64,000 nt of DNA from Coffea arabica. Its lineage: Eukaryota; Streptophyta; Magnoliopsida; Gentianales; Rubiaceae. The stretch spans positions 8,310,501-8,374,500 of the forward strand of contig NC_092317.1 in NCBI RefSeq assembly GCF_036785885.1, written 5' to 3'. Below the pieces are notes generated by a model, which made no database searches, was not told the origin of the DNA, and saw only the letters and a program-made list of their open reading frames with translations. Of this stretch, positions 14,704 through 50,820 are shown piece after piece. Within the stretch, counting starts at the first letter, position 1, and the number at the start of each line of letters is the position of its first letter. A program made the translations under genes and the position numbers.

Positions 14704-16450
14704 ATCTACAAGGCCTTTAATTCAGGGAAGTCCAATCTTAGTCTCCCAAGATCAGATGCAACCTATGTTAGTATTTGAAGACCTGGCCACAAAAGAGATG
14801 TAGGTAAGTCACTTCAGCAAAATCAGAGTAATAATGACAACCAAGCAGCACTTTTGAGTCCAAAATAAATGGGCAGAAATAACCAGAGCATGAATTTCTC
14901 AGCACTCAAATTGCATCATTTAACCAATACATCAAAGAACTTAATGCATCTCAAAAAAAGTGTAATGAATAGCTTCCAAGAAAAGCGCAAAGCACTGAAA
15001 TCGACAAAACTAGATTGCCAAATCTCAAGCATGAAGCAGTAACAACCTGCAGTGCGTATTACTTTCTTTAGCCTTACAAACTAATTCCTCTTCCTTTCTA
15101 TCTACATGTTTGTTAGAACTAAATATGCAATCTGACAATCTAAAGAAACAGACATGGCAATACAAGAGAGACTAACTTTCCTTGGTGATTCCAATTTTTT
15201 TTATACCACCATAATCTAATAATAATGAATGAGAAAGGTAACATCAAAATAATAACATTTCATGTCAGCAACCTTTTAAAAATCCCTATGCTAAATTGGT
15301 GCGAAAACCACAGACATCAATGCATCTTTCCTTTCCATTTCCATGTTCATCAAATGTAAATATCATAATCAGCCACTCCAAACATAACAAAATGGCAATA
15401 CCCTACAGTCTGGCTACAAATTTCTTCATGTATTATCACCAACTACTGCCATCAAATGAGAAAGGTAACCAATAAAACAATAACACGTTAGACCAGCGAG
15501 CTTTTGGAAACCCCTCGGCTGAATTAGATTAAAAATTACATTTAAACAGTCGTTGGCGTGAAAAGAAGAGATATATATTTTAAATCAACCTGCAGAAAGA
15601 TCTGTTCAGGAATTTGGAAAACAGCAGAGCAAGCAAGTCATTTTACACATGCATATCATATGCCTAAACGAATCATGTAAAAGAACCTTCAATCCCCTTC
15701 AAACAATTTGAACCAATCCATATAGGGTTCCTAATGAAAAGAGATTAACATTAAAGTTCAGAACTTCCCTGCATTATGAAAACATTCAGTCATCACATAC
15801 TTTGGCAGGATCCCAGATAAAAACTAAGTTCCAATTAATAAAACAAACAATCAATCCCTGATAAGAAACAATTACCAACGACGATAGCCAAAACGAAAAA
15901 AAAAAAAAAACATGTGCACACATTGACACACTTATAAACAACGCACACATACAAAGACTATTTACCTGCATTCATATGGACTTAAACAGATAAAATTGAA
16001 CAAAAACCATTAATCCCACGTAGACAAAAGTTCAGAATCCACAAGCAAAACCAAGTTCACCAAATTCAACTAAAACCCCAGCAATCACCCACACAGACAC
16101 CCGCAAACACAAAAAATCACCGTAATCAGCAAGCGAATGACAAGCTCTTTAACATAGCATTTGTTACAGAAAATGAAAAATGATGAGCATGCATAGATAT
16201 ATAGATACAGAAGAATACAGAACAGCAGATAAAAACAATAAAAATTACCAGTTTTGCAATGAGGTGAATTGGCTGGACGCTACTGTGAATTGGCTGCAAA
16301 GTTGATTACTTTTGGGTGAACTTGAAACATCTCAGGTGAAAATGATCATCAAAAGAAAGTATACTTGTTGAATTTCATGGTTGAATGAAGAAAGGATGAA
16401 TGTAAGAAGAAAAAAATCGCTGAAAATGTTGATAAATTGCAATGTACAAA
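14704..16450 (-). other. 5' leader and leader intron of the J-protein gene
   Basis: No coding sequence is seen here. A good acceptor (TTTTGTGGCCAG) lies at about 14783 on the minus strand. A donor (CAAAACTG then GTAATTTTT) lies at about 16250. This suggests a non-coding first exon from about 16450 to 16251 and a leader intron of about 1.47 kb. A second donor-like site lies at about 15966. Inferred from splice signals only. Confidence 0.45.
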
Positions 16451-17911: not shown

Positions 17912-20900
17912 TCAAGTCTGAGGGTTTGCATAAAGTTGGGCATAGACCCTCTTCGTTCGATGAACAACAATCAGACTCAGGACGACAGCAATTGCACAGA
18001 GTCCTGACATGATTCCACAAGTGATTGAGTAGCATATGGTGCCATAGCAAGTGAGTGACTCAGCTTCCTCAGCACGTCCTATGGGATCCAGCATCTGATG
18101 TTGTTTCTTGGCCTCATAGTCATATATTCCACTGGCAATAACACCAGAAAAGATTAAAGAGCCAGCTGGGCTTGCCAATGTCAGGAAATTATACAAGGAA
18201 CCGAAGCTTTTCAATCCAAACAATTCAGACACTGCAGCTGGCACGATTGCCCAGTGTGCCCCATATCCAAGTCCAATAAGCACCGAGACTACATAAATTG
18301 CCCCAGGCCAACCCATAGCATAGAAGAAAAGTGCAATTGCCATAACGACCTGAACCACAGCCATTGCCACTGGTCTTGGGTATGCATAGTGTCTAAGAAA
18401 GTACTGAACATTAGAAGCAGACATAGAGCTATAAAAGGTGAGTACAATGCATTTTAAGCAAATAAAATCTTCTACCTTATAATGTTCTCAGAGAAGTATC
18501 CTCCAGCAATACGACCAAGGAAATTAAAAATGCTAATCATTGAGACAAAGATGTGAGTATTGCTGTAACCAAGGGATTGGCACATCTGACCAAGGTTATC
18601 AATCACTGTCAACCCAGAACCAGAAGCTAGTACCAATGAGATAAAAATAAGCCAGAAATCTGCCTTCACAAGTGCCTGCAACAAAGTAAAATCCTCTCCT
18701 CTACGAGGACCTTTTCTCCGCTTAACCCTTACAGCTCCTTCTGCAGCTGCTTGAAACAGTTTAGCTTGCAAATGAGCAATTCTTTTATGCCTCTCTGATG
18801 CTGGAAGTGAATCAACATCCGAGGCCTTCTCATCTTCCACCTCACTGAAAATTACCTCATTCTCATCCTGTCCCATTTTACCAGCTTCCTGTTTCTGGGG
18901 ATCAAGAAGAAGGCTCTCTTCTGTTGTGGGTCTTGGTTGCGAGAAGAAAACCAACATAATGGGGATTGCAATAGGAAGTAAAATGAGAACAATTAAAATA
19001 ACAGTTAATATTATGATCAATGTCTGGTTCAGACTGACTAAATCTTCAAGTACCAATACTGTCAAGAGATAAGCAGCTAGAACAAGGCAAATACTGTAAG
19101 TAAACAAGAAGCTTGAATTATCACTTTGTCTAAATTGCTTGTGACCTCCAACTGGTCGAACAATGAACATGAGAGCACTTATAATGACAGTCGGACCAAC
19201 AGCAACCATAAAGATTAGTGATGCTTGATTGGGAAAGTTCATCATGGCATATATTTGAGTAAGAATTGCACCACTTAAGCCAGCAAATCCCTTTAGTATG
19301 CCAACGACTGGACCACGGCTTTTGGGGAAGTTCTGAACACAAGAAACAAGAGCTCCTGTATTGAAGTACGTCTCACCATTTGTTCCGACAAATATCAAAA
19401 TGCATAGCTGCAAACAAATAACCAAAGTCAAGGATAAAATATTGAAAAGAAAACAACCAAAAGACTACAAACAGTTGCTTCATGCAAAGATCAAAGTGAT
19501 CAACCAGGTTCCTAAAGTGGTTGAAGAAAAAAAGTGCAAGAATGAATACCACTAGTCATTTTTTTCCCCAGGTTGCAGAAGCAAGATGCATTAAACAGTC
19601 CCGTATACTCAAAAGCACAAGACCTTGTTGACTATGCTACCAATTCACACCTAAATGACTACATTATCATGAAACTCCAGAAGACATCCCAGAGGCAGCA
19701 TATAGGATTGATACCTAAAGAGTTCAGGACCTTTACGGTAAACTTTGTAGACATTAGTCTGCTAATGTGTCCACCGAGGTCAAGGATCAAGTACTCAATT
19801 TGCCCATTTGATATATTGAACTTTTACTGGTACTTCAGCATATTGTTCCTTCCTTAAGTCATAAGACTGTTTTTGGCAAATAATTTGACCATCTTAAACT
19901 TCTCATAATTTCAATTAAAGCCTTCTTTGTGCCAAAATAGTATTTAATCTGAACTTAAGCATTTTCAACATAGTATATTCATAGAAACAGTAAAGGATAG
20001 AGTAATGCTGGGAATCAGAAGCTAGAGAAATTAGAACACCTCAAAGTTCTTCTGGTAGAGTAGCTGTCTAGCCAAGTAGATATATTGGAGTCTCATCATG
20101 ACTGATGCAACAGCAAAGAAAACTTTTTACTTCATCAAGAATTATGAAAAGACTAGCTCATGTAAGCATAGCTAACAAGACAGCAAATCATACCTAGGCA
20201 TCTTCTATACACTAAACATGTTCATCTTTATTTATATAATTTGAAGTCATCATTTCCACCAAATCTTGCCAATGGCATAGCTACAGAGGTCAATTATGTC
20301 GAAGGTTCAATTCACTCAAAAAATTTTCCTTGTTCTTCTATTTCTTTCTCTTCCTCTTTCTTTCCTTCTTTTCATCTTTCCCTGTGAAATGTCTTAAACC
20401 ATTGCGAAAGTAAGAAAAATATACAAGAAAGATGGTTTCACTGTGGTATTACAGAAAGTGGGTGTTCAAATTTGAAAAATGCGTTCTAAGTCTAGAGTAA
20501 AGTTTGTCAAACATGAGCTCAGCTGGTTTTAAAATAAAAAAATGAAAATCTTTTCATGTGATCTCATTTTGTGAATTTGATCATGCAACTTACTATTTTC
20601 TTTCAAGATGAGATTGCATATCCAAAAAAATTGGGAAAACCAGACATTTGACAAATTTGAGCTCCTACACAAAACCTTAATACAAGACTGCCTGCAGCAT
20701 TAGGTAAAATCTTTGCTGAGAATTTAAACATTTTATCAAAGGCACCAAGGAGGTGCAACCGATTTACAGAAGAAAACCTATCTCTTGAGAGACCTATGTG
20801 CTCAGCCAATAAAAGTCAGCGGATGACAGGAAATCTATTAAATGTAAATTCCTGAATCTGTTCAATGAAACATTTTTCATGTGTTCTATGTTCTTCTAAC

Positions 20901-22851
20901 TCCCATTAGCAGCCCCATCTTTTCTTTCTGTTCAAAATGACCAGAAGATGCATAGTTGCAAAAACTAGTCAACTGTAAAGTAAATCAGAAATTACACGTG
21001 CTCCGAAGCTGTAAAGAAAATGCATCTTTACCAGATAAGCATTTTATGATCAGCAGACAGAATTTGACACGTGAAGCTCCAAGAAGATTATTTTGCAGGT
21101 ATAAAATGTAAACCCCTCAAACCATCAGGTAGCAAAAAGTTTCTGATGATCTACAGTAAACGGAAGAGCAAGGTATGGAGAGAGTGGATAACAGCTCATG
21201 CAGAAAAGAAAATACTTCATCTCACTTTTGTAGTTTTTAATACAACAACGATAATCTAGATAACAATGTTGATAACAAGATTAGTCAGAGAATATAGATG
21301 GGATTTTGATCTGGAACCATGGACCATGTAAGGAAGTAAACAGTTCCATTGTAGAAGTGCAATGAATCTTCTCTGGAACTATACCATGAAATTCGCAGTT
21401 AAAACGTTCTTGGAAAGCAGCAACTATTGTAATGCAAAAAACTAGAAAAGAACAAGAATATAATTATGATTTCACTGAGAAGTGAATGAAGCGATCAGCC
21501 CTTGGCACAACCAAAATATATCCAAATTTTAGAGTAATACTTGAACAGTCACTTGATGGCCAGGAAAAGTAAGCTACATAATTGCCTTGTCAAATTGGTA
21601 GAAGCTAAGGGAAACTGAAGCAGCAGAGATAAGTTACACACTTGGCTAATTGAAACAAGAAAATGAATACCAGGGAAATGCCCTAAATTGGTGACATGAG
21701 AAGCAACAGTTCTTATTTTTTAATGACTCAGCATTTTTCTCTTCATGTACTTCTCACTCTGGTTTATATTTCTTCTGAAAGTGACATGAGAAGTAACAGT
21801 TATTATTGCTCAATGACTATGCATGCATTTGCTTCATCTACATCTTACGATGATATTGTTGGTTTAGACTTCATATGTAAGAATTACTATGATGGTTTGA
21901 ATTTCTATCGAATTTGACACTCAGAAGCTATCCTGCAAAAGCTTGCAGAGATAAAGAGAAGGAAGGGAATGGTTACTGCTTTTGTTGCATGGATTTCATA
22001 AACGCATGTATACTTGAATTGCTAGACATGGCAACAACCAGACAAGCCCTAGATTGTAAAACAACAATCAAGACTAAAACTTCAAGCCAAATTATGATGG
22101 CTGGAGGAGATATTTTTGCTGCTACTACATTCAAGACTAAGGCTTGAAGTCACAGAGCTATATCGGTTGCTACAGAGAAATTTTTTGAATACTATCTTTA
22201 GTTTGTTAAATTACAAGTAAACTTTGTAGGTAAAGAACCACTAAAATGGATCTATGAGTTCCATCAAGTTTTGGTACTACATAAATGGAAATAGACAGAA
22301 AACAACCGTAATTTATCCTACAAAGCTTGACATATCAACTGCTAAGTAGATTCATATATTAACATCTGACCAAAGGCAACCAAATTCTTCAATCCATAAA
22401 TAGACAAAAAAAAAAACTGACATCACAAGTAATAAACAAAAAACCCAAAAAGGAAAGGGCATAAAAATACTAATAAAAATTAAAAGGGAACATAATAAAA
22501 AGTTGAGTTTACCACCCAAAGAGGCAGAGCAGGCAAAGCACCTACGACAATGAGTCCAACCAGACCATACCCAATAAAGTTCTGCACAACCCCGATCAGT
22601 AAAACCGACCAAATTGGCAAAATTTCACACAAACTCCCAGCAATGAAACCAATAGCATCTCCTAAATCTTTGGCCACACCCAGCATAGACACTTGCCTTT
22701 GATTATAACCCATGGTGCTTTTTATCACTGGAGATATGCTTCCAAAAAGATACCCAATTCCTGCACAAGATTGAACCCACATTGAGGCTACAAAAACTAC
22801 CCATTTGTTGTTGAAAAAGGATTTCAGTTTCTCAGGAATTTGAATAACCAT
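17912..22851 (-). CDS. Nodulin-like major facilitator superfamily protein (NFD4-like), 595 aa, three exons
   Basis: A multi-pass membrane transporter of the plant nodulin-like MFS family; substrate unknown. Exon 1 is 22851-22513 (ATG, MVIQIPEKLKSFF; donor GTAAAC). Exon 2 is 19407-18476 (acceptor TTTGCAG, donor GTAGAA). Exon 3 is 18428-17912 (acceptor TTATAG, ends YANPQT). Phases 0 and 2 join cleanly to 596 codons including the stop. The N-terminal half is the nodulin-like domain with VQSCAGIGYLFGSISPVIK and, across the exon 1/2 junction, GTNGETYFNTGALVS and FPKSRGPVVGILKG. Residues about 269-360 are a long charged cytosolic-type loop; the C-terminal MFS half follows, with GRIAGG and GYGAHWAIVPA. 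Intron 1 is 3.1 kb. Relatives include NUCLEAR FUSION DEFECTIVE 4, but that function cannot be transferred by sequence alone. Confidence 0.92.
19408..22512 (-). other. Intron 1 of the MFS gene
   Basis: A 3.1-kb intron with no nested gene that I can support. A short local duplication occurs: GACATGAGAAG-AACAGTT at about 21692 and again at about 21783, each followed by TCAATGACT- or TAATGACT-like sequence. Open frames inside are short and featureless. Confidence 0.7.
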
Positions 22852-24625
22852 GCTGCTGTTCCTGATGATCAAACTATGCAACTAAAAGCATGAAAAGGAT
22901 TTTTTTAAAAAAAAGTTGGTTTTTTGTTTTTTTCTCTGTATTTGCAGGAAAATGAAGAGTTGCCTGTGGTCTTGGCTAGCCTGTGTTCTTGGCTAGTACT
23001 TCAGTCCAAGATGGCCTTTAAGGTTTCTGTGGCGTGGCTGATTGGGGTTTACTAGTGATGACGTTTAGTGAATGAAAAAGTACGATAGTAGCGACTTGGA
23101 TTTCCCATTTTAATTTGACCAAACTCCTTTATTTATCCTTTTTTTTTTGGCTTTATACAGGAAAAAAAAAAAAGGAAGAAATACCTTTGTGAATTCAAAT
23201 GTGCATCCTCTATACACACGTGTATAATGTTCCTAAGATTTCATTTTTAGTTCTGTTACTTTAAAGAAAATGGCACGACAAGAAAGAAGTAATCACGCCA
23301 ACTTTTGGAGAAATAATTGGACAGCAATTTTTCTTTTTCGCTACGTTTTTCGTGAACATTTTTTTCAATCATCTTTTTATCTCACGTATATCAAATCATT
23401 ATAATAATTTTTTTTACAAAAAATCTGAAAAAATACAATTCAAACAAGATGTTTCGAAAGAATGAGAGTTAAAAGGGAGTCAAACCTCATCTTATAATTT
23501 TATTATGTGCTGTCGGGATATAACTGATTTAATGGGGATTGCGTGGATTCTTAAACTTAATTAATTTCGGTTATCTCTGGTTTTGAAAGGAAATAAAGCT
23601 GTCAATTTGCTTGGTTTAGATATTTCAATCTTGTTTTAGAGAAAAAGCCCTGAATTTGAGAGTTATTTTATCCAATCCGCAGAGGTTGAGTAAAAGATGG
23701 GGTGACTACGACAAACAGCAGGATTTCCCTCCTTGCAACAAATTATTAGATGAACAAATTTCACTATTCGAATGCCAAATAAGAAAAACAGCCATCTCAC
23801 ATAGCATTATTCAGTCAGATGTTAGAGGGCTGAGTAGATTTTACCTTCTGGGATAAGAAAACAAAAACAGCTTTATTGATGAATACCAAGTAAAAACACG
23901 TGACTTCTACACATGCTACAACCAAGAAGTTTCACAGAGTGAATTAGAGTACGATGGTCTGGTCGAAAGATGAACCAATTACTCAATGCTTGAATCAAAT
24001 TTTAATTTGATAAAATTTCGTTTGAACTTCTGGCTTACCACCTAATCGAGCAAAGTTTGAACAGCACTTTGTATCCGTTAAACTTTTAAGTTCAACTCTA
24101 ACTTGGCTCAATTTGTTTAAAATTGAAATTCATAGATAAAAACACTCGAACTACTCGAGTTCAATTCAAGTTCGACTTGATAAAATTTCATTAGAATCCG
24201 GTTTGATAGCAAATCAAATTTAACTACAATTTTAATTTTGTTAAAATAATCAAACAAGCCTAAATATTAAGATGTTCGACTTGACTAGATTTGTTTACAT
24301 CATTAAACAAGAGTACGAGCAATTACCTTTTTAATGAACTCCAACCAAGCAAGAAGAAGCTAAAGAATCTTAGTAACCCTCTCAAATCGTCACATGGATC
24401 CAAGATTGCATATTAACGTTTGAGATGATATACCTTCAAACTTTGGAGTGCTTTGGAGTCATAATTATAGTATTTTAATTTCAGCAAAGGGGTCTCAACG
24501 ATTGATGGAGCCCAACATTCGATAACATGCAATCTTAACATTAGATAATATGAACATTAGCTAATATGCAATCTTAACTTTTAATTTCAACATTAGATAA
24601 TATGAACATTCTTAACCAATTCATA
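22852..24625. other. Intergenic stretch upstream of the MFS gene
   Basis: Contains the probable MFS promoter (just right of 22851), a MITE-like unit at 23305-23450, and a 23980-24330 stretch of degenerate TTCGAACTCGAGTT-like sequence resembling repeats near 45150 and 50090. No gene seen. Confidence 0.5.
23305..23450. mobile_element. Short MITE-like element (TTTGGACAG family)
   Basis: The left end AATTGGACAGCAATTTTTC and the right end GAAAAAATACAATTCAAACA are near-inverse. The interior carries the phrase TTTTTATCTCA-GTATATCAAAT, shared with 25850-25975. No clear target duplication. Confidence 0.45.
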
Positions 24626-29724: not shown

Positions 29725-30489
29725 ATTCTTTGGAGTTTGTATGGATTTCTCTGCATGGGAAGAGAACTCGTGCCGTGGATGGCTGAAGATCGACTTAGAG
29801 CGGTCCAACTGGATCTCAACCATTCATTTGATATTTAATAAAATTTCAAATGAACGGTTAAGAATTGGCCGGATCACTCGAACTTGATCTTTAGTTGTTC
29901 ATCACACATCCCCTAATTTATGGAAGAAATGTCAAAAAAAAAAAAAAAGACTGTTCCATCATCCATGGATGCCCGATGTATATCTACTCTCATAGTCTCA
30001 TTCAATTCGTGGGGCATTTGACGTAGAAAGGATCGGGAGTCGGTGAATCTTCTTGTGCTCACTACAAATTTCTGAAGGGGGCGTTGTATTGTTAGCAAGA
30101 TTTGACCAAACTCGCATTAAATGCAATTATATAGAGACACCTCAGTATCCCTCCATTAGATAAAAACTACCCACGAAAATTCAAGAAGTCTTGAAACAGA
30201 AATCCACCTTGTATAAATGAAATTTTACCTGTTGAAAAAATGAAAGTTCAAGATTCAATAATGAAATTATTCACAAGAGAAACTATCCCTTGATTCAAAC
30301 AAGAAGTATCTTTTCTCATCACGCAAAAGCTACAGAGAGCCAACTCCAAAACGTAATGTCAGGCTTTGCTTTTATAGTAAAGCATTAGTTCTCACCTAAA
30401 TGGACAGCCAATCCAAATCATGGAAATTAGACAATACACGTGAGAACTATCAGTTGACACCTCAAAATTGATCATCTTCAACCTAACTT

Positions 30490-33400
30490 TTACTTTTCCA
30501 TCTTCAGTCTTGAATCATGAGGCTGCAGTAATCGATCATGCAGCAAATCCAAATAAGCAGATTGAAGACATTGGTTCATCTCCATTGTGTGCTTTGTCAT
30601 CTTTATAGCCCACATCTGATTCTCTCTATTTGTTTCTATTTTCATTTGTAGAGCATCAAGCGTCCTCCCTCTCTGCGCAGTTACGACAGACACAAAAAAT
30701 CTTCATTTACCTTCACTAGTTTTTTTACCATGCAAAATTACAAATCCTTCCTCCAACTTTGGCCAAACTAAAAACTGCAAGATATCCCTTGATGTTAATA
30801 AAAAGAATTTCGACACAGATTCACGCTAGGGACAAGCTTTAGTGGGGTTGCTGCAGCTCTGTGTGTGTTTGTGTTTTTTTAAAAAACACTTTAAATTCTA
30901 AAACCACACAACCAAATGGACTTATTACTTCTTTACCATTAATTTGAGAAACGATATAGAATTCTCTAAGATGTTTGAAGAGATGGAGAGAGACCTCTAA
31001 ATCAAGTATGTGCTTCTCAAGTAAATTCGTGCTTCTGCAGCCTAACATGGCATCGGCTTCTTCTTGGGCACTGCTTGAAGGCAGAAGTTTAACTGTTTCC
31101 TTGGCAAAGTTGGTAGGCTGAGAATTCTTGTCAAGCACACAAACACGGAATTGAGAGGTTCTCTGGTTGTTCTTAGGTATTAAAGATGACTTACTGATTG
31201 CCACCAAATTAGATATTGGCCCTGAAAACATATTCATATGTAAAACAATATCTGAGGGAAAAAAAATTGAGTTGTACAGAAATGAAGGATCACGAGCATC
31301 ATAAAAGATACAAAAGGGGAAGGTGAATACATATTTGTTGCAATTTTCTCTAGCTATTTTTTTGCAGAAACAGAATAAGTGAGGCAAACGTGAGTTCCAA
31401 ATCTTGAAAGCTTTTAATTAAGTTCATAATTAATTTGTTGCAATTTCAGTTTTCCAACTATAGATGAAAGCAATTTGGAAGTTGGTGCAATGACCTTTAA
31501 AGTGGTTGAATCTTCTAATAATGGTATAATTGACTGTGTCCCAGAGGCAAACAGTACAGTCATCAGAAGCAGAAACCAGACCCGCTTTGCAAGATGTCAA
31601 TGCAGTTATTGATTTTCTGCAGAAAATGCAAACACTAAGGCTTACGAAAGTAACTAAAAAAAAAAAGAGTTATATAAAGGATTACAAGGGAACAAAAATA
31701 ATTGCATACTTACTGGTGTCCATTTAGCACAATTTGTTCACCACATGGATTGGAAAAAGGATCATTTAGAAGTCCAGCATCAAATTTGTTCAAGAAAATT
31801 GCCCCATTTTCACTTCCACAGAACAAAATTTCTTCAAGAAGATCAAGAACAATTGCAGTTATTGGCAATGGAAAAGCTTTCGTTTTTATAAGATTCCCTG
31901 ACAACATATTCCACACCTAAAATGCAACAGGAAAACTGTCCCTTAGCAGGAATTAATACTTTCTAAAACATGTACCATAGAAGATAAACTAGCTATCAAT
32001 GATGGTGCTAGCTCAATTCATCTTTGTACACTCAAGAATGTAACTCATCAAATTGAAGGTGTACATAAATGCGTATAAGTAGCTTTTTTTTTTTTGGTCG
32101 TATAGAAAATTCATGACCATATGGTGAAGAAAATAACTGCATACAAACACATCATAATCAAGAGTGACAATTCACTTGTGCAAAAGAGAGATGTCAAACA
32201 ACAAATACAAAAAAAAAAAAAAAAGTATAGTATAGTAACCTTGCAGGTTCCATCGAGGGAGCTTGAGATAAAATTAGAACTGGAGTTGGTGGATGCAGGC
32301 AATAGGCCAGTTATAGCTCCCGTGTGGTCTTTGGACATACTCACAATTGAGGTTAAGCAATCACAATTGCCCTCAGCCAGCAAACTGCAAAAGTAGTTGG
32401 TAAATATAATCAAAAGGAGCAAATTATTTGGGTAGTTACTAAACTTTTCGAATAGTCAAATTTTAACCACTCAACTATTAACAATATGTTTTTACCAATT
32501 GAACTATCAAAATTATACATTTTGGACCATTCCGTCTGATTCCACCGTTAACTCTGTCAGATATAACTATTAATAGTATGTCATGTAAATCGTACGGACC
32601 CTTAGATCTAACAGAGTTAACAGCAGAATCAGATGGAATGGCCCAAAATTTACATATTTGATAATTCAGTGGATAAAAACATATTACTAATAGTTAAGTG
32701 GTCAAATCTTGATTATTCAAAAAGTCCAGCGACTACCCACATAATCCGCTCTAATCAAAAGTTAAGACAGAATTTCAATTAATTCGTCTAATGACATTAA
32801 CATCCTAGGCCTAAGATAACGATTCAAGGCCAAAACATTCTAGAATTAACTTGCACTTCTATATACACTTGCAACTGTGCACAAAAGTAACAATCAAGTG
32901 AAGATAGGAGGGTTTCAGGCGTACAATATTTGAACACAAGATTTAAACTTGTCGGCACTGCATCTAGACGCTAGTCTTACTCTTTTGTACAAGTTCAACT
33001 AATGCATATAACAGAAGATTTATTCCATGACTATTTTGTTTGGATAGCCCTCATCCAGCAAACTGCAAAAGTAGTTAGTACATACAATCAAAAGTTAAGA
33101 CAGAATTTCAATTAACTCGTCTAATGACACTAACATTTAAGACCTAGGATAAAGATTCGAGGCCAAATCATTGTAACGTTAAATTAAAGTTGTGGAACAG
33201 TTCTATGTACATTTGCAACTGTGTACAAAAGTAGCATCCAGTTGCACGTAGGAGGGTTTAAGGTGTACAATGTTAGAACACAAGATTTAAACTTGTGGGC
33301 TGCATCTACGCACTAGCCTTTGTAGAACAGTACAAGTTCAACTAATGCATATAAAAATTATTCCAGGACTATGTAGTGCAGCCCTGAAAGCCTCAAACAA

Positions 33401-34340
33401 TATTATATGTATTTTGGAAAACTTTAAAAACTTCTAACGAGAGGGTATACAGGCTTACCCGATCATGGACCAAACAGCAATACTTCCATCCGCTGAACCA
33501 GAGATAAGAAAGGAATCATCGCTAGAAAGCACCATACAGCATATTGAGGTGTGATGTGCTGACCAGTTCTTCAGTAGCCTCCCAGAAGTAACCTACATAA
33601 TCACCATAAATTCAGGGGTACTTTAGGATCTTAGTGCTTCAACAGGATTTGAAATAAACAACATGAACAATAGTCAATGTTTCTCTAAGGGGAAAAAAGG
33701 AGAAGTAACAAATTTCTTTTGTAGTTAAAATAAATAAATAAATAAATTTGGGTCATATGGATCTTTGCAGAAATGTCGGTAACTTTGCTGCAGAATAATG
33801 TGATATTGTGAAAGGAAAGGGTCGGGGAAATGAGGCACTATAAAAAAAGAGTATCTGGTCGACCTCCCAAACGTATATATTTCCAGAAGTAGCTCCACAA
33901 GCCAGATATGTTCCATCCCTTGTGCACGATAGGGGTCCAGTGGATTCCAGTAGATAGCTCCTTAAAGTGGCTTGATGCTGATTCAAGAGGGACAAATGAA
34001 AAACATTCGTGTCAATATCAACAACTAAATACCAAGAAGAAGGGGAAAAAAAAAAGGGCATTACACGAATTAAGAATTTAAATAACTTGAATAAGAAAAT
34101 AAATTTACGAAATAGTACCTTACTTAAGGGCCAACTGAAAATGACCCCACCACTAACCGAGCCAGTTCTTTGAACCTGAGAAGCCACAAGATATTGGTTT
34201 CTCAAAGAAATGAGGCCATGAGGAGGTGAAGAACAAGTTGGTATGTGGAGAAGACGATCACCATTTTCTAGGTCCCAAATTGTTATTCCTATGCTAATGT
34301 TCTTATCACTGCACACTGCCAATGCCTCCTTGCAATCCAT
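30490..34340 (-). CDS. RID3: RID3-like WD40 protein (WDR18/Ipi3 type), 449 aa, eight exons
   Basis: RID3 is a nuclear WD40 protein of plants, related to yeast Ipi3 and animal WDR18 (60S ribosome maturation); Arabidopsis mutants fail in organ regeneration. Exons: 34340-34119, 33977-33864, 33592-33459, 32384-32240, 31916-31714, 31616-31495, 31221-30995, 30672-30490. All have GT/AG borders and the phases sum to exactly 450 codons with the stop. WD-type ends seen: GITIWDLENGDRLLHIPTCS, GNIYVWE, DGSIAVWSMIG, DGTCKVWNMLSG, DDCTVCLWD. The C-terminal about 60 residues (LDALQMKIETNRENQMWAIK) are a probable coiled coil, as in RID3. I chose the ATG at 34340 (MDCKEALAVC) because family members begin just before the first strand; an in-frame ATG at 34382 would add 14 residues. 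Arabidopsis RID3 is of similar length. Confidence 0.93.
32384..33375. repeat. Intron tandem duplication in the RID3-like gene
   Basis: The sequence around the exon 4 acceptor plus intron 3 occurs twice: from about 32370, and again from about 33047 to 33375. The words CCAGCAAACTGCAAAAGTAGTT and GTTAAGACAGAATTTCAATTAA identify both. Divergence is moderate (scattered substitutions, small indels). The copy at 33047-33070 keeps an acceptor and about 17 bases of exon 4. The lower copy is interrupted by the MITE at 32417-32752. Confidence 0.85.
32417..32752. mobile_element. Mutator-type foldback MITE with target duplication
   Basis: A 336-bp element starting GAGCAAATTATTTGGGTAG and ending CTACCCACATAATCCGCTC, with arms of about 150 bp that pair imperfectly. 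The word AATCAAAAG (9 bp; 10 bp with a preceding T) flanks it at 32408-32416 and 32753-32761. The paralogous intron copy has the same word once at 33086-33094, without the element. It lies in intron 3 of the RID3-like gene. Confidence 0.88.
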
Positions 34341-34739
34341 GTTGTCTCTCTTTATCACTCGGCAATCACATAGACTTCTCATAGGGTTTATACAGATAAA
34401 CTAGATTTGCTTTTTGGTACACTTAGTGCTCACCTCTTATTGGTTCTTGGAACTATAGAAATCTTACTTTTCACCACTTAAGAATTTACCCATAAACCAT
34501 ATTACCATACTTAACTACGGAGATATTGTTTGTCGTTTCTCAATTTGAAGTCATGAATATCTCGTGAAGACATTAGAATGTCCAAAATTGTTAGCTCATA
34601 TGATGATCTCAGTCTTAATTTTTTAGTAGTACATTTGTTTGACATGCAGGCATTCTTAAGCTGCCAGAAGAGCAACTGTATGTGCTAAAAAAGTTGTAAC
34701 GGAAGCTTTTCATTTATGTGTAACTGGACGGATTCGTCC

Positions 34740-35380
34740 AGCTATGCTTTTGGATTATTCAATATTTGAAAAACCAGTTATTCATATATAATGTTACAGT
34801 AATATACAAATAAAACAACTTTAAAATATCACATCCATACAATACATAAAAAAAAACAACTCCAAATATACTAAAAAAAAGTTACACCAACCACCAAAAA
34901 ACACGCCGCCCCTTCCCCCTCTCTCCTCCCCCTCCTTCTTTCTTCTCCGCCTCCTCCTTCTTCCTCATCCTCCCCTCCCCTCCCCACATCTCTTCTGCTG
35001 CCCCCCTCCCCCTCTCTAGTCACTGGCCAGACAACCAGTTTTTGGTCGTGACTCACAACCAAATTTGGTCGTAGGCGGCGACCGTTTTCTGGTTGTGACC
35101 CGCGACCAAAGAGGGATGGGGCGAAGAGGGGGGTGGCAGGAGAGTGTGGAGAGGAGGGAGGAGGGCGAGGGGGGTGGAATAGTCGTGGGTGGTTGTAAGA
35201 TTTTAAAAAATTTTAAAAATATCTCATTAAAATTTTAAATTTTAAAAATACTCTAAAATATATTTTCAAAAACACCCAAAAAACACCATTAAAAACATAT
35301 ATAACAAAAGTTTTTCACCTACATTGTTATAGTAAAATATTTTAAAAACACCCTAAAAAATAGCTAATCCAAATAGACCA
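34740..35380. mobile_element. MITE-like element with polypyrimidine/polypurine core
   Basis: The outer ends (GCTTTTGGATTATTC near 34747 and GCTAATCCAAATAGACC near 35364) are imperfect inverses. Inside, an AT-rich shell surrounds a C/T-rich strand stretch (34905-35020) and a G/A-rich stretch (35105-35180). They are separated by a GC-rich core containing GGTCGTGACTCACAACC and GGTTGTGACCCGCGACC-like words in inverse orientation. No coding sequence, and no target duplication identified. Confidence 0.5.
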
Positions 35381-38415: not shown

Positions 38416-41400
38416 TCATAATTTAGATGAAGCAGCAGAAATTGCATGATTAACCAGTTCCCTTCTCAGGATTTTTCCTGCTGGAGATTTTGGAATCGAG
38501 CTGATAAATGCAACTCTTCGTATTTTCTTGTATGGTGCAACCTTTGATGAGAGAAAAACAAGAAAATGAAAGGCACAGAAGTTAAGAGCTTGCATTCAGT
38601 GAAAAGTAGGATCACTATATTACCAGAAGTGACAGCCATTTTCCTCTTTGAATTAGAGCTCATATCCTCTAATCTTAGACAGTCTATTTACTAGTTAAGT
38701 GGTAATCAATAAGTTGATCTTTTAGATTCTATAGAAGCCGAAGTACGACGAACGGAAGGAAGAACATACTCTCAGCTGAACCGTAAAAATATCACAGGCC
38801 ATATTTGGATGCAGAGTGAATGTCAAAAGCATATATGTTTCAGAAGGAAATTGTAAAGCTTTTGTATCTTCTATTTCTAAAAGTGAAAGTACCTGTTTTG
38901 CAACAATATCCATAATTTGAGTCTCAGTAACATGGCTTCCAGGTTTCCTAACAATGAAGGCCATAGGAATCTGACCTGCTTCTTCATCAGGATACCTGCA
39001 ATCGGATGATATTAGGCATCAGAATTACGAGTTGATATATACACCAATTGCTCAACAAAAATTCAGAAGGTTTTTTTTTTTTGCCATGTAATGTTATGAT
39101 TGATTATGTATAATGGCGTCAGAATTAAGAACACCAGTAGCTGAATTATAACTCAAGACAAAAGATTTTGTTTAACCATCTAAATATTTGAATTAATAAT
39201 GCACAAGGAGCCAATCCTGTGTATGCACTATAATTGTCTTTCGCTATTAAACCATGTCATAGATGAAACAAACGAATCAAAGGTTTCAATCAGAAGGCCA
39301 GAAGCCAAGATTCTTCATGCTTGAAGATTGTTTTTTGCAGACCGAAGGAAATAACCTGAAAAAACCGGATAGAGCCTCACCTCTAGATAATCTACTATTT
39401 CATATCAACGGAAGTAGGATATTTAAATTCAGTTCTGTTTGAATAGATGGAGAGTAGAAGTAATTCCCCATTTTCTTGGTGACAAACTGTACTTTTACGT
39501 TATTATAAGTTCGGCATTTGATTTCAATTCATCCAACTGCAAGCTAATGCTAATAAATCTGTGTCAGTTCTTAATTTGTATAAAGTAGATTAACTGTTCA
39601 ACTAACATCTGAACTACAGCACGAGCTAGAAATTAAGCTATGAGATACATACGGGATCACTGCTGCATCAGCTACTTCAGGAATTGATTGAAGCAAATGT
39701 TCCAATTCAGCTGGTGGGACCTGCAATTTTTCAAATCCTCATCAGCTAGTGAAATTTGAAAGGTGTGTATGGCACCTGCACCTAAAATCTTTCACAAAAG
39801 AATAAAGTGAGGGTTGAGCTATGCACCTGATATGCTTTATACTTGATGAGTTCCTTTAGCCTGTCAACAATGTAGAGGAAACCATCAGAGTCAAAATAAC
39901 AGAGATCACCAGTCTTCAGCCAGCCCTCTGAGTCCAAGGTTTCAGCTGTTGCTTGACTATCTCCGACATAACCTGCAAATAACCCCACATTCTCCATCTC
40001 AAAATCACAGTCACAAAAGAATGGCAAAGTTATATGATCAACTTCTCAAGGAAATGCATGCACATGATACATAAAACTCAGGAGCCTTTGGTTTCTGCCA
40101 TTAAGGCCATCTTTTTTCTGCTGTATTACTGATTGAAAAGATAAGAAAATAATTTCACCACAAACAACATGGATCCTGTGTAGCAGCATACTCACGGCAA
40201 ACACAAATACAACCACCAAACAAAAGTAGGCAACAATTAATACCATAAAATAAGTTAGAATGCACCATTAGCTCCTAAGAATTTGAAGTTAGGTACAAGC
40301 ACTTGTTACTAAAGAATTATACATGCAACACACATATATGTATGATCCAGAGCCAAACATTTCCAACTCCTTTGTTGACTTAATGATATATAAACAAATT
40401 CAAAATATGGACAGAACTACATGAAGTTACAGGTTCACATAGACAAAATGAGGTTTTAAAAGATGAAACTATTAGTAGATGTAGCTTAGGCATATGAACC
40501 AGCTATGCTCGAGAAAATGCATTTGGAGACCAGGAGACTTAAAGGAGAGTGTAATATCATCTGTAGATTTACCATCAATCAAGGAATCACAAATTAGAAC
40601 AATCTTGAATTATCACATATATAAGTCCCCTTCTATATCACCGCATCAGTATCTTCCCAAAAACAGTACCAGCAAATCAGCTACAGGGCAAACAAAATTG
40701 TGGGCAAGATCCTTCTTAAGACAAAGTCAAAAAAAGTTCTTTCTCAAGACATAATATATTGTGGTATACATTAAAAGCATCATTTTTTTTTTTAAATAAA
40801 CTGCATCCACGTTTTGCAGCAAAGACTAGGAATGCAGCCTTTAATTGCTCAAAGGATGTCATCTGGAAGTAAATCTGTTGATACGTATCCCAGCACAAAC
40901 GTAAGTGGCAAAATTGGGTCCATGCATGTTCACCTTTCATGATAATAGGCCCTCGTAGCCATAGTTCACCTCGCTGACCAGGAGGTAAAGCCTCTTTAGT
41001 ATCAGGATCCACTATCTTGGCTTCTGTGTGCTCAGCAAGGCGACCAGTGGATCCATGTTTCTTTATCTCCTCAGTTCCTATCATCCGTGTAGCCGCTCCC
41101 CCAGTCTCAGTCATACCATACCCCTATAAACAACATCAACCAAACAAGATATTATTCAGAAATTTGCTTCATGATAAAATATACTGCTATTTTGGAACAA
41201 AAAGACATATGGAGACACACACACAGAGACTAAATAAACCCCTGAAGTTTTTCTTGTTGGATGAAGATCAGCTAATATGGTCCAAATTCAATGAACTGCA
41301 GACAAAGTGGTCCCAAGGATATGGTCTTGATAGAAAAAAATTCGATCAATGTAATAAAGGAGATTTTAAAAGGCACTCCATCCATTTTAGTCATGCTGTG

Positions 41401-44272
41401 CAGAAACAAATTTTAGAAGCAAAAACAACTAAGGAATCAAGTGTACATGATGGGATGCAAATAAAATGCTTAGACAGGATTCTAAATTCTGCATATGGAT
41501 GTAAAATCAGCAAGGCACTGTAATTCATGCAAGGCATAGAAATTTTTTATCTGACATTTTTCAAATCAATTCTCAAGATTCAACAAATCAAGTCAATTGA
41601 CAATATAAGGGATAAAGTGTTCTGCTCCCCAGAATAGATTATGAAGCCAATCAACCAACCATTCATACTAGTCCTTATTCACAAAGTATAAGTTAAAAAT
41701 TCTCAGAAGTTTGTCCTGCTCCATGTTTATGTTTGTATTAGAAGATGAACAAATAGTTCCTAGTAAATATTTGGACCAAGTAGACATGGCAGTAAAAGGA
41801 TATAGATTCAAGAAAAGAATCTAAATAATAGCATGGTACAAAACGTTCTACAGAAAACTGCATGGCTGATTTGATAATCTATTGGCAAAACCACTACGTA
41901 TGAGACAAATGATGAGATTCAATACTCCATAAATCCCCTTATATCCCATTTGTTAAATCTAGTGTTTGAAGTTCTAAGTAAAAAATTTTTTTTTGGGGGG
42001 AGGGGTGGTTGTTAGTAGTTGCACGACAAATTTTATAAAACAGTCCTTACAGTTCACTTTGATACATTGAGGTTCTCATTTTCTTGTCTTGTCAAAATTC
42101 CTATACTAACTATGGCAAATTGTTTTTTTAAGTGTCGAAAATGGTATATTTCCACACTCCTGAATAGTATCAAAAGCCAATGGATATCCAAAAAGGCAGG
42201 AGTTGTATTCTCCTAGGGCAAGATCGGTACATCCTAAAGGTGAGTGTTTATGAATGGTGATTGATTTTCTGGATTCGGCATAAAAATGGGACTCACTAAC
42301 TATATCTTTCTTGAAAATGTTAACCGTGACTACAATAAACAAAATTATTTTTTTTAATTAATTTTGAAGGCAAAAATTACTTGTGCATGGGTGCCAACTC
42401 AATGATTATACACGAAGATGTCTAATTAATTAGCTTAAACTTTTCTTAACCTTCATTAATTTTTGACTATGTTTAAATGCAGATTTTACTTTTAGTTGGT
42501 AAATTTGAGCACGTTGTTGAGAAAAGGACTAGGTACTACCTCCTAGGCATATAGTACAGGTTTCGCATTGGTCATTAGCTAACACAAGTTGGACAGTTGA
42601 CTCAATTAATAAGTTTAGATCACTTGTTTAATAAAAGGGTTGTGGGTTTGAATCACATTGTGTAATGATCTTTTCAAACAATTTATGGTCTCGAAAGTAT
42701 GGCCTGACTCCTGATGGCGAACGGAGTCGAACTCAACTCACCTAGAGTTTAATTTACTAAAACAACGGGGTGTTGAGTCGAATTATCCAAACTTCAATTT
42801 AAAAAGAAAAAGTAGTACCATTACTTGGAATCCAGCCATATTAATCAACCAAACAGTCCACGACAAATCACCTTTATTTCGCATTTAGCAGCACTACTTT
42901 GACGACAACGTAATGAGTACTATGATATTATCCCGTCGCATTCACCGGTCGGCCACCAAGCTTGCGGGGGTCAGATTGAAAAATTTTAAATCTTCTGATG
43001 TTTTTAATGTTTATTTAAGAGCGTACTTAATACTAATCCAAATACTAACAAATTGCTAGTTTTGAACTCGAACTTGGACTCTTGTTCGACGGCACATGCA
43101 AGCCGAGTTAGAACTCATTGGTCAGTTGGTCGGACCGGGCCAAACTGGCCGGTGCAATCATATTCTAGAAAGAAATTCAACTCAAAGAAAAGAATAAATA
43201 AACGTGCCTGGGAAATCTCCACGTTGGGGAACCGGGCTGTGAAGCTCTCAGAGACCTCCTTTCCCAGTGGCGCACCACCGCATCCAAGTAGGCGTAGGGA
43301 GCTAAGATCGTACTTATTCACTATATCCGACTTAGCAAACGCCACCACCAGCGGCGGCGCCACCGGCATGTAAGTCACCTTATACTTTTCGATGGCTTCC
43401 AGCATATTCTCGAAATCAAACTTCCCCAGCAGCACCAGAGTCTCCCCCAAGGCCGCAGCCCTTATCAGCATAAAGAACCCGAAAACATGGAACAGCGGCA
43501 AACTGAACAGCGACACCGGATGAGGCGGATTTTCATCTTCACCGTCAGCTTTGTGCTTATTGTGATACAAACCTGCTATCACGGCTATTAAGGTGCGGTG
43601 GGACAGTTCCACACCTTTAACTCGTCCGGTTGTTCCGGACGAGTAAAGTATAGCGGCCGAGTCATTTTGGTGGATGACTCGGCCGCTATACTTACTTACC
43701 GCTTCGATCTTCTCGGTGGAGGTGTGGTTCGACAGCACGGATTGGAACTGCGGCTTGTCTACGAAGATCATACTGGACTTCAAGGCTTTCGGGAACTTCT
43801 GGTAAAGCGATGAAATGGTGAAAACGACAGCTGGTTTACTGAGTTGGAGTAAGTGAGTCAACTCGGAGGGCGAGGAGAGAGGGTTGGCGGGGGAGACGGT
43901 GAGGCCAAGGGAGAGGAGGGAGAAGTAGAGTACTGGGACGTGGAGGGAGGGAGGGCAGAGGATGAAGGCGACGTCGTTTTGGGAGAGGGAAGGGTATTGG
44001 GTTAGGAGGAAAGTAGAGAGAGAGTGCACTTGGCTGAAAAATTGGGAGTAGGACAGTTGGCAGCCGGTGGAGGAGTCGATGAGGAATGGGGTGGAAGGAG
44101 AGGTGGTGGAGGTGGGGGAGGAAGTGGTGGCACGGAGGAGGGAGATGGCGTATTCAGTGATGGAAATTGGCTGAGAAAGTGGTGGTAATGGAACTGGTGG
44201 TCGAAGGTTGTGGTAAATTCTTGTTACTGAGCAGAACCCACTTTTGGGGTCTATCCTTCGTGCATCCGCCAT
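38416..44272 (-). CDS. 4-coumarate:CoA ligase-like acyl-CoA synthetase, peroxisomal, 565 aa, six exons
   Basis: An AMP-forming acid:CoA ligase (ANL superfamily). It adenylates a carboxylic acid and transfers it to CoA. Exons: 44272-43208, 41123-40934, 39972-39827, 39720-39653, 38995-38893, 38541-38416; phases sum to 566 codons. Residues 211-221 are the P-loop [20 protein letters not shown] starts at 356 and [15 protein letters not shown] follows in exon 3. Exon 3 also has [24 protein letters not shown] carries the catalytic Lys547. The protein ends SKL, a canonical PTS1 peroxisome signal. Peroxisomal 4CL-like relatives include OPCL1 (jasmonate precursor activation) and 4CL8 (ubiquinone ring formation); I cannot pick the substrate. 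The first intron appears to use a GC donor. A partial duplicate lies at 48990-50820. Confidence 0.92.
42590..42670 (+). mobile_element. SINE-like copy in intron 1 of the 4CL-like gene
   Basis: TTGACTCAATTAATAAG (42597-42613) resembles an A box and GTGGGTTTGAATCAC (42642-42656) a B box. The head matches copies at 5884 and 35401. Confidence 0.5.
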
Positions 44273-44353
44273 TAGTGTGTGTGTTTAGTGCGTGTTCTTG
44301 GTGAGGAGGAAGGAAGAGCTGAGATGTGTTCTAAGTTCTCACTTCTCAGATAT

Positions 44354-45620: not shown

Positions 45621-48537
45621 TAGTACCCTTAGATACTTGTACCAAAAATGCATATTTAAATGGCATTTCTCTCCAATTTGCACTGAAGCGACTTTGCAAC
45701 AAGAGCCTACCAAAAAGAAAGAAAAAATAATATAAAAAACTGTGCATGAAGAGTATTAAGTTTACAAATTTATGTTGGTCAAATTTGATTCTTACCTAAA
45801 TTTTCAACTAGTTTTTAACCGAAATTTACCACGTGTCTTACATGTGACTATTTTTTAGAGGCAAAATTATTAAATCACATTTTATATAATTCGATTCATA
45901 ATCTCTCACATTTAACAAAATAAATTTTTTTATTTCTCACATTTTGTAAAACAATTTTTTTCAAGTCACATTTCACAAATTACACTATTCTACAAAATGT
46001 CTGGGTCCATTGGCTGCCACGCCACGCCATTATTGAAATGTCAATGGACCATTGAAACACTTGGAATTGTACTCCAATTGAAATGTCGTTTGTTGGAAAA
46101 AAAAATTGAAATGTTAATGATGTGTACGGCTCACAAGTTCCATTTTGCACAAGTTTGGGTGTAAAGGTACTGAAATAGAGTGTAAATAAGCTGTAATCAA
46201 AGCGTAATTAAATCAAAGTACGGCACAAAAAATTTTGAAATGACCAATTTACTTTCAAAGGTAATTTATGAAACTGTAACTCGTGAGGCCCATATTTATC
46301 AATGGTTTCTTAAAAGAACTCAAGATAAGGAATTCCCGTAAGGAAATAGACAAATGGTAAAGGGTATTGACAGGAGCTGGTTTTTTTTTTTTTTTTTTTC
46401 GAAAACGATAGAAGTTTTTATTAGTTAACACTTTACAGTATTTGTGTAACGGCTCAATTGGTGTTACAAAAGTGTATCCCAACACTTAAAAGGAGTGACA
46501 ATGATTCTCTCCTCATCTCGTAATATGCCTACTTTCGGGATTTATTATGTAAAAGGAATACATTTGGTATTAAGGTAGATGGAAAGACTATCACGCGTTA
46601 GATCCATACTTTCAGAATTTATTATGTAAAAGGAATACATTTGAAACACTTTTAATTAGTAATGCTCGAGGGATTTTGCGTTGGAGACAAGCGGTAATAG
46701 TTATGGTATTGACAACATATATATAATTTGACAAAATTAAATTGATCAGATTTTTAAAGTGTGGAAAATTAATAAACCAAAATGATCCATGTTTTGTAGT
46801 TTCATTGCTTTTTTTTTTCTTTTTATTTGGGCTAGGTTCATTGTATTTTTTGAGTTTTGGTTTAGTATAGACGTGATTCTTAGCAATTTTTTTGGTCCTT
46901 TTGGACGCCCCTTTTGCCCTTTCAGTGCCTATGCCGGGCTGTAGCATATCTCTGTTTTAAGTTTTTCAAAAAAAAAAAAAAAAAGTTTCTATATTGTGTG
47001 TAGCCGATGTATTAATTGAGGCATAAGATAGGAAAAGCCATTGAACTAAAACTAACCTAGTGATTACCAAACTAGTATTAGGATTCACTTTTTTTTCAAT
47101 TACTATAATGGCCAACTTGAAAAGAAAAAAAATATTAGTTGAGTGACCAAAACTATACTATTTGAAAAGTTTAGTAGCTGCTAATATGTTTTTTGCACTT
47201 TTAGTTTCTATACTGTACGTGGCCGATGTATTTATTGAAAAAATAAGATAAGAAAAAGAAGGGAAAGTGTTAGGGCTCTGAGAGAACCAAACTCGAGGAG
47301 AATTTAACCATGAGATAGAATGTGAACCACAACTATGGATTTGACACCATATCCAACCCAAAACCTTAAGGCATTGAGTTTATGGATCATTCCCACTTAT
47401 ATGTTTCTCATTCTACTCATCTCTTTCCGATGTGGGATATTGATTCACACTTGATATCCCAACAGAAAGATAAATTGGAAAGAGATTTTAGGAAATGAAG
47501 CTAAACCAAATTGAGAATCATATTTAAAACAAACATCTTCAAAAATGATTATTCTCACAAGTAACCACGTTTGAAGATATGTAAAAGGTGAATAACAAGA
47601 GATTACATCTAGTAGTGCATATGTATAGAATTCACACTTGTAATAGTAAAAATAGTACTATTGGGCTTAACAAGTCAATGAAAAGCTTCAATGATTTATG
47701 GGAACAGTCTTGAAAAATAAATTCATTGGTTTAGAGGAGCCATTGTTTGAAAAGTAAAGCAAGCCTTGATGGTGCATAGTTCTTTTTCTTTTGCTTCTTT
47801 TTTTTTAATTAAAAAAGAAATTTTATTATTAAGATGGCTGAAAATCGTGTAGCAGCAAATGATTGAGAAAAGTCTAAAGGGATTCAATATAGTGAGATTA
47901 TTTTCAACGATTCGAGTGTTTTTTGTAGTAAGTATTACGAAATTTCTTAATGTAAGTGAAATTTTTTTTGTTAACTGTGAGTCTTGTAAACAATAAACAA
48001 ATTAATCATATAGTTAGAGTATTTTGTGAGAGAATCCATAGAGCTTTCTAGTCCAGAGCTGCTTAATTACTTGAGATATCAGTCAAATTACTACTTTAGT
48101 ATTCGTTTTTAAACGTGTTTTTGGTGTGAATGGTTATGGTTTTCTTTCAATTCATGATTACGTGCGAGTGGATATTAGAATACTGAAAAAGTTTTGGGTT
48201 CTATACTGTAGCCGGTGGCCGGTGGCAGTGAGGAATGGACTGGAGGAGGCGGCGGCGGCCAACGTGGTGGCAGGAGGAATTTCATTCACCCGATTGAGGC
48301 AGACTAGTCAAACGGACCGTGTACGGAATCGACAAGTTGACCAATTGGCCTGAGTTTAGAAACATGTAGCTATCACAAATGACCATTGATGGAATTCCAT
48401 TGCAGTTGCCATCAAGGAAAAATATCTCTCTATTTTTTTATGGTAAAAAAAAGGAAGAAAAATAACGAGTTAGTATATTCTTGGAAATTGTTTTGGTCGG
48501 GTTGAAAAAAGAACATATTATATCTTGTGCATCGGGT

Positions 48538-48989: not shown

Positions 48990-50820
48990 GAATAATGTCA
49001 TGCCCACATGCATTTCAGAGCTGTGAATGGCACCTGCAAATAGAAATGTTTCACAGGGAAGAACTGGATTGAGGGGTGTGTTGTGCACCTGATACGCTTT
49101 ATATTTGATGAGTTCCTTTAGCCTGTCAACAATGTAGAGGAAACCATCAAGAGTCAAAATAACAGAGATCTCCTGTCTTTAGCCAGCCCTCTAAATCCAA
49201 GGTCTCAGCTGTCGCTTGATGATCTCCAACACAACCTGCAAATAACCCCCTATTATTCTCCATTTCACAATCAAAGCAACAAGACAACGCTAAGGTTCAC
49301 ATTTATCATGTTCTAATTCTCGATGAAAATCCATGCGAGTCCAGGACATTCCCTTGAACTTTTGCCACCTGAAACTTACTTTGTCTTCCTATAGTAATGA
49401 TTCAGAAGATAGAAAACAACGTCATGAGAGACAACAGCAATCATTCAAAGGAACGTATATATGGCAAAGGACAACAACAGCATCGAAAGAAGGTAATTTT
49501 ACCATAAAAGAAGTTAGGATGCACCATTCAAGGGGCAAATAAACGCTGATGAAATCCACAAACACAAATCTATCCAAGGATCCATAAAAACATGAGATCA
49601 ACAAATGATGTGTTATAACATCATTTTCTACATGAAATTGCCTATCATCCTGAGTTTGCAGCATTAGGTTGAAAACGCAGCCTTTGATTACTTCAAGGAT
49701 GTTATCATTTAGCATAATTAGGTGGCAAAATTGGCGCCCTGAATGTTCACCTTTCATGACCGCAGGCCCCCGTAGCCATATTTCACCTGGCTGACCAGGA
49801 GGCAAAGCCGCTTTGCTATGAGGATCTACTATCTTGGCTTCTCTATTCTGATCCAAGCGACCAGCAGGTCCACATTTGTTTGACTCCTCAGGCCCTAACA
49901 TCCGTGTAATTGTTCCCCCTGTCTCGGTCATTCCATATCCCTATGACCAATTTAAACTGGATAAAATATCATTCAGAATTCACTTAATCGTAACATGCAT
50001 ACTGCTAAAGACCATGAAAACTTGATCAAACAAAAATAACTGAAGCTTAAAGGGATGAAGAACATGTTTTATAGTCTAAAGTAGGGTTGCAAATAAATCT
50101 AGCCGTTCACGAACCGACTCAATCAAAACTCAACTCGAGCTTGGTCAACAACCTGAGCTCGAGTCGACCAAATCGAGCTATCGACCTCAAATCAAGCATG
50201 GAGAAACTCAGTTCATTAGCGACTCAAATTTTATAACTATATATATATATATATAGTGAAATTACATATATATCTCTAATATTTTATTATTTATTTAAAA
50301 AATTGATTATTTTATTCACTTTTTAATTTTTTTAAGTTCGAGCAGGCTCGAGGTTGAGATCGAGCTCGAACTTGAGTTTTATATTGAAAGTTAATCAAGC
50401 TCAAACTTGAGTTTGACTTTGAAGTTGGTAAAATTGAGTCAAAGAGTCGACTCGATTAGGATAAAGTTTGACTCGACTCGGTTTGTTTGCAGGTATTAAC
50501 CTACAAACAAAAATAACATGGTACTCCAAGAACCTGGTAAACTATTGTATTTTGTCAGATCATGACATACTGACTACGGTGATCTAGGAATGTGATCCTA
50601 ATCGAAGTGGAAAAGCAGATATCATCAGAAGGTTTTTAACGATCAAAGTGGTTAAGTGGATAGTAGATACCAGGGAGGAATTCCATATTTTCTAGTTATG
50701 CTGCAGAAACAAAACATTAGAAGCGAAAAAACAACAAAGATCTAGTGCACATGATGGAATGTGATTAGAATCCTTGCTCAGGGTGGTAGAATCTGTATAC
50801 GGACATGAAAGTCATCGAGG
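48990..50820 (-). pseudogene. Partial duplicate of the 4CL-like ligase gene (exons 2 and 3 only)
   Basis: Exon 2-like sequence at 49940-49751 is open and has the same 190-nt length as in the intact gene ([22 protein letters not shown]). Exon 3-like sequence at 49235-49089 has 147 nt instead of 146: one extra base after LCYFDS gives an immediate TGA. Intron sequences on both sides also match the intact gene: 49670-49750 matches 40840-40933, and 50650-50820 matches 41370-41540. So this is a DNA-level segmental copy, not a retrocopy. Exons 4-6 are absent to the left. Exon 1 is not seen before the LTR element at 50974 and could lie beyond it. Confidence 0.87.
50085..50500. mobile_element. TTGCAAATAAA/CTCGAGCT repeat block inside the pseudogene intron
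   Basis: A 0.4-kb insertion with no counterpart in the intact gene's intron. It starts near AGGGTTGCAAATAAATC, ends near GGTTTGTTTGCAGGTATTAA, and is full of CTCGAGCT/GACTCGA words. The ends are partly inverse (TTGCAAA versus TTTGCAG). Probably a non-autonomous DNA transposon of the family also seen at 45150. Confidence 0.5.

Follow-up and report, generated by a model that had tools for sequence, protein, structure and literature searches.

Occupied and empty sites of a putative Mutator-type foldback element in a tandemly duplicated intron segment of a candidate RID3-like gene in Coffea arabica

Introduction

The third intron of a WD40 gene in Coffea arabica, located within a window of 64 kb (the whole stretch of DNA analysed here), contains a foldback element and a tandem duplication next to a splice site. 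It raises two questions: does the intron preserve both the occupied and the empty version of one insertion site, and in which order did the events that shaped it take place? The first-pass annotation had proposed such a pair, created by duplication first and insertion later. A pair of this kind shows one transposition beside a splice site both before and after the event, in a self-contained form that needs no second genome.

The Gene and Its Third Intron

The gene model was built by placing exons by hand from the sequence, keeping the reading frame and GT-AG intron borders; coordinates are positions in the window.

30490..34340, minus strand: coding part of a WD40 gene of the RID3/IPI3/WDR18 kind, 8 exons (hand-placed, frame and GT-AG)
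34340-34119, 33977-33864, 33592-33459 and 32384-32240, minus strand: exons 1-4 (hand-placed)
31916-31714, 31616-31495, 31221-30995 and 30672-30490, minus strand: exons 5-8 (hand-placed)
32385..33458, minus strand: intron 3, 1074 nt (gene model)

The eight exons join into an open frame of 449 aa with GT-AG at all 7 introns, and a further in-frame ATG is found at 34382. The other six modelled introns measure 97–323 nt, and intron 3 would have had approximately 396 nt before duplication and insertion (1074 - 345 - 333). In a search of solved structures, 351 distinct sequences passed the threshold of 0.001 and the best 60 of them were considered; among these, the three best matches of this WD40 protein are WDR18 (E-values from 2.8e-34 to 3.2e-34) and IPI3 follows at 4.4e-17, with designed propellers, WDR3 and a bacterial WD-40 protein ranking in between, so that WDR18/IPI3 are its closest counterparts among the solved proteins of this set. 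In Pfam, WD40 scored above its cut-off; among the best 25 of 35 families, the lowest E-value belonged to the WDR3 propeller, which stayed below its cut-off, and no WDR18 or IPI3 model appeared. The name RID3-like given to the gene earlier thus finds support in its WDR18 and IPI3 matches and, judged by similarity, is a reasonable label, although the gene could be a paralogue rather than an orthologue of Arabidopsis RID3. The Arabidopsis protein is described as the IPI3 orthologue and as required for pre-rRNA processing (PMC4009429), and it is likewise a WD40 protein; the coffee protein has its best solved matches in WDR18, with IPI3 lower down.

Other coding stretches were observed elsewhere in the window, all on the minus strand. 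AMP-binding stretches, which we take to be 4-coumarate-CoA-ligase-like, lie at 40716-44284 and 49422-49940 (Pfam matches for 43118-44284 and 49425-49940), and the frames 40716-41123 and 49422-49940 share a GYGMTETGG segment, possibly as neighbouring paralogues. A DnaJ and DUF3444 protein occupies 12106-14721 as one open frame of 872 aa (Pfam) and carries internal repeats of a segment like SSFKFGGSRSMSTPAT. Exons of a Nodulin-like/NFD4-type transporter are found at 17912-22881 (Pfam for 18475-19464, the others as open frames).

A Tandem Duplication With Microhomology Borders

32369..33046, minus strand: duplicated unit 1, on the exon 4 side, occupied by the element (alignment; GCCCT borders)
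33047..33380, minus strand: duplicated unit 2, on the exon 3 side, with the empty site (alignment; GCCCT at 33047 and 33381)
32369..32373, no strand assigned: border word GCCCT within exon 4, repeated at 33047-33051 and 33381-33385

The 3' part of intron 3 together with 16 nt of exon 4 forms a tandem duplication with a unit of approximately 334 bp. Unit 2 is 334 bp long (33047 to 33381) and unit 1 is 333 bp long after subtraction of 345 bp for the element plus one target repeat. Positions 32366-33039, with the element and one repeat removed, were aligned pairwise with 33044-33377, and 271 of 322 aligned columns are identical (84.2%), with 19 gap columns in 6 runs. The alignment scored 397, whereas 200 dinucleotide shuffles of one partner never exceeded 52. 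The alignment of the two halves, which the first-pass annotation had suggested as a check, therefore reveals a true tandem duplication; the earlier description of a duplicated intron 3 and exon 4 acceptor holds for the tandem itself, but only the 3' part of the intron is involved, and some 73 nt at the donor side are single-copy. The units differ by 24 transitions and 27 transversions (K2P 0.178). Fewer differences were seen in the 80 acceptor-side columns (6/80 versus 45/242, Fisher p 0.021); at cut-offs of 40, 60 and 100 columns the p values were 0.36, 0.08 and 0.14, and no claim of higher conservation is made.

The word GCCCT occurs on the plus strand at 32369, 33047 and 33381, and no further copy is present on that strand in 32301-33500. 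Because these three copies mark both ends and the junction of the tandem, they point to a duplication that arose between 5-bp direct repeats, probably by slippage or microhomology-mediated joining (end-joining). The microhomology borders are a new observation of this analysis.

An assembly that joins an occupied and an empty haplotype end to end is a known kind of error and might imitate such a tandem. Fifty-one differences in 322 columns, in addition to 6 gap runs, far exceed the usual allelic difference and for this reason make an artefact unlikely; the borders also share a 5-bp word located in exon 4, no exon is duplicated in full, and we regard a false tandem as highly improbable.

The Element, Its Target Repeats and the Empty Site

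32417..32751, no strand assigned: foldback MITE, 335 bp (336 with T32752), with arms and ends GAGC...GCTC
32407..32416, no strand assigned: left copy of the target site duplication, either TAATCAAAAG (10 bp) or, starting at 32408, AATCAAAAG (9 bp)
32752..32761, no strand assigned: target site duplication, right copy, with a further T at 32752 before AATCAAAAG
33085..33094, no strand assigned: unit 2, empty site CAATCAAAAG; identical to the repeats except for the C at 33085 (9 of 10 bases)
47133..47192, minus strand: single-ended remnant resembling the left arm of the element, 60 nt, 75% identity

A repeat scan of 31000-35000 located two arms of 150 nt each (32417-32566 and 32602-32751) that are 80% complementary, separated by a spacer of 35 nt (32567-32601), symmetric and abutting the target repeats. 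In the reading of 31801-34200, the word AATCAAAAG was found at all three places where it had been reported, twice around the element (32408-32416 and 32753-32761) and once in the empty site (33086-33094). The unit alignment crosses the insertion point without a gap, and matches extend over 37 of 42 columns on the left flank and 86 of 100 unit-1 positions on the right flank. The agreement of the empty site with both flanks of the element, on which the proposed pair depended, is thus present, and the pair of occupied and empty sites is borne out: there is homology on both sides, with the element and one target repeat missing from unit 2.

The exact size of the target duplication is a different matter. 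An extra T precedes each flanking copy of AATCAAAAG (32407 and 32752), and by inspection the removal of 335 bp plus a 10-bp repeat or of 336 bp plus a 9-bp repeat results in the same joined sequence. Both lengths therefore predict the same empty site, and the earlier statement that this site confirms a 9-base duplication is not upheld. The foldback is present as claimed, although we favour 335 bp with a 10-bp repeat over 336 bp, given the symmetric ends GAGC...GCTC.

The anatomy of the element is that expected of a Mutator-type MITE. MULE target duplications range from 8 to 11 bp, and the one in intron 3 measures 9 or 10 bp. The element is short (335 bp) and apparently non-coding: among frames of at least 40 aa, the longest stop-to-stop frame inside it has 71 aa (32478-32693), and a 114-aa frame that holds exon 4 extends 39 nt into it. 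For MULEs a 9-nt duplication is given as typical (PMC2528002, PMC4486113), and long terminal inverted repeats, here the 150-nt arms with 80% complementarity, as typical and not universal (PMC2528002). The earlier MITE reading is supported as well by size, arms, hairpin and repeat length, which resemble those of MuTAnT elements. Membership in a family gains less from the surroundings, as the 64-kb window holds no second full copy and a single 60-nt remnant. Transposase-like domains were absent from the 7 window proteins scanned against Pfam. A 25-letter arm pattern had no exact match in viral_contigs or genome_contigs, viral or prokaryotic collections in which little was to be expected; of six arm words searched in literature text only GAGCAAATTAT matched, in four papers, none of them apparently relevant; and Rfam returned no match at gathering score for 30400-34500.

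The presence of one full copy in the window would also suit a hairpin produced by a local inverted duplication and not by a transposon. Such a local event is not expected to leave target repeats with an empty counterpart, nor a dispersed remnant (47133-47192), and this explanation is hardly credible.

The Order of the Two Events

The account that we prefer, with a probability of about 80% as a whole, starts with a segment of approximately 334 bp of the intron, extending across the 3' splice site over 16 nt of exon 4, being duplicated in tandem between GCCCT words; the words, the borders and the homology are observed, and slippage or microhomology would have provided the joining. Afterwards, a non-autonomous Mutator-type foldback element would have entered the unit on the exon 4 side, presumably moved in trans by a Mutator-type transposase; in doing so it would have copied 9 or 10 bp of target and left the other unit empty, as the observed pair attests. 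The gene frame would stay intact if the exon 3 donor is spliced to the last acceptor, beside which the insertion copied a branch-point-like word, a possible reason for its tolerance. The gap-free alignment, the three identical 9-mers, the symmetric arms, the GCCCT borders, the 449-aa frame with WDR18 as its best solved match, the remnant and the structural precedent of the MuTAnT MULEs all argue for this account.

Duplication before insertion, as the first-pass annotation had it, is the simplest and most parsimonious order; it is not proven, and the pair does not show it directly as had been claimed, since other histories leave the same tandem. Assuming identical arms at the start, the change per arm exceeds the change per unit since the duplication, and this larger divergence (30/150 between arms versus K2P 0.178 between units) would fit an insertion that is at least as old as the duplication. 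It would be compatible with an insertion that came first as a segregating allele, followed by an exchange, such as unequal crossing-over, between alleles with and without the element, which would generate the same final anatomy with no excision. This history requires the insertion to have been polymorphic exactly when and where a rare exchange between 5-bp words happened; it is less parsimonious and we consider it unlikely. Very unlikely is a second history in which the insertion came first, the occupied unit was duplicated and one copy of the element was then lost exactly, through excision or recombination between the 9/10-bp repeats. The target repeats, being short and in direct orientation, offer a route by which exact deletion restores an empty site, but three events and an exact deletion are needed, and 33085-33094 shows no extra or missing base.

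Returning to duplication followed by insertion, the divergence of the arms may also reflect an element that mutates faster or arms that were imperfect from the start. The divergence does not decide the order, since it would suit an older element only with arms that were identical at first, and the 10-bp repeats are too short for dating.

A Predicted, Asymmetric Hairpin in the Sense RNA

The 30 differences between the 150-nt arms comprise 23 transitions and 7 transversions, a higher transition share than between the units (Fisher p 0.011). In the sense RNA of the gene, 19 of the 23 transitions give G·U and 4 give A·C, a skew with a two-sided binomial p of 0.0026 (unadjusted and noticed after the fact). 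The predicted fold of the sense RNA reaches -179.4 kcal/mol versus -139.7 kcal/mol for the antisense RNA, and the difference of -39.7 compares with -27.0 to +32.3 in 40 random re-orientations. This G·U excess of the sense-strand hairpin is new here and unexplained, and a literature search on MITE hairpins and G-U pairs found no paper that combined all six terms used. Transcription-linked mutation was considered as a cause and is not supported: G exceeds C in the sense strand of 2 of the 6 other introns, in part of unit 1 and not in unit 2.

When intron 3 is folded together with 20 flanking exon nucleotides on either side, 138 of the 150 arm positions find a partner no more than 6 nt away from the expected one. 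One interpretation is that the hairpin is retained on the sense strand because, lying 32 nt from the exon 4 acceptor, it would have to stay looped out for splicing to that site. Such a role is conceivable because in yeast a hairpin placed between the branch point and the acceptor is reported to shorten the effective distance (PMC12350175). The idea is weakened by the fold itself, in which parts of the TTGAT word and of the acceptor are paired as well, and by the remnant, which hints at an old difference between the arms; we hold retention for looping out to be quite unlikely. At the 13 positions where the arm differences could be compared with the remnant (47133-47192), it agrees with the left arm at 10, with the right arm at 2 and with neither at 1; by this comparison much of the asymmetry could go back to an old divergence of the arms, although the polarisation is biased because the remnant was found through its likeness to the left arm.

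Predicted Splicing Around the Duplicated Acceptor

32981..33062, minus strand: possible decoy exon of 82 nt (duplicated acceptor 33063 and GTAAGA donor)
32385..32416, minus strand: 32 intron nt between the element and exon 4, containing TTGAT from the target repeat

The copied acceptor at 33063 retains its AG and upstream context. If it were used, translation would end after residue 170, whether the sequence is read through or the decoy exon serves as a cassette; by eye, the GTAAGA matching the decoy donor is missing from unit 2. This predicted decoy acceptor with its premature stop is likewise new here. An intact frame would require that the exon 3 donor be joined to the last acceptor, 32385.

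YTNAY is a branch-point motif. Within 80 nt of the acceptor of the empty unit such words lie 49, 32, 25 and 12 nt from the AG, and before the working acceptor they lie 71, 25 and 16 nt from it, the one at 25 nt being the branch-point-like TTGAT inside the target repeat. Because the YTNAY positions differ in this way between both acceptors, the insertion appears to have displaced a TTAAC word and yet kept TTGAT beside the acceptor, and it may have been tolerated by means of this copied word. Intron 3 is in this sense a natural test of tolerance, with a duplicated acceptor and a strong hairpin near the working one.

Relation to Known Empty Sites and Mutator-Type Elements

The paralogous empty site inside one intron is confirmed. 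It is evidence of a known kind, in a setting that is unusually compact, and as a fossil of two events it is clean and fairly ordinary; it leaves the knowledge of MITEs and MULEs unchanged, and a dated series of events is obtainable if relatives are compared. Among the papers listed by a literature search, no printed case of an element inserted into one of two tandem intron units could be recognised, which does not prove absence.

RESites (Related to Empty Sites; Le et al., 2000) are described as paralogous element-free sequences that reveal an insertion and its target duplication (PMC2213677, PMC4486113). In intron 3 a paralogous sequence without the element does the same; unlike the sites so described, the empty site is the adjoining tandem unit in the same intron, about 0.3 kb away. 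Among described elements, the MuTAnT MULEs of Medicago truncatula are 292-bp foldbacks with 144-bp TIRs, a hairpin-forming sequence and a 9-nt TSD, and the coffee element is similar in size, arms, hairpin and repeat length, as compared by description and not by sequence (PMC4486113). It differs by its GAGC/GCTC ends from their GGGG/CCCC end stretches, and it has no TA array around it, whereas all but 14 of 218 MuTAnT copies sit in TA microsatellites (PMC4486113). The Tm1 Mutator/Foldback elements of root-knot nematodes, with TSDs of 8–10 bp, mostly 9, in 45 of 53 elements, share with the coffee element the long inverted repeats and the use of a paralogous empty site; by description, and not by sequence, they are set apart by composite, internally repeated TIRs and an animal host (PMC3169594).
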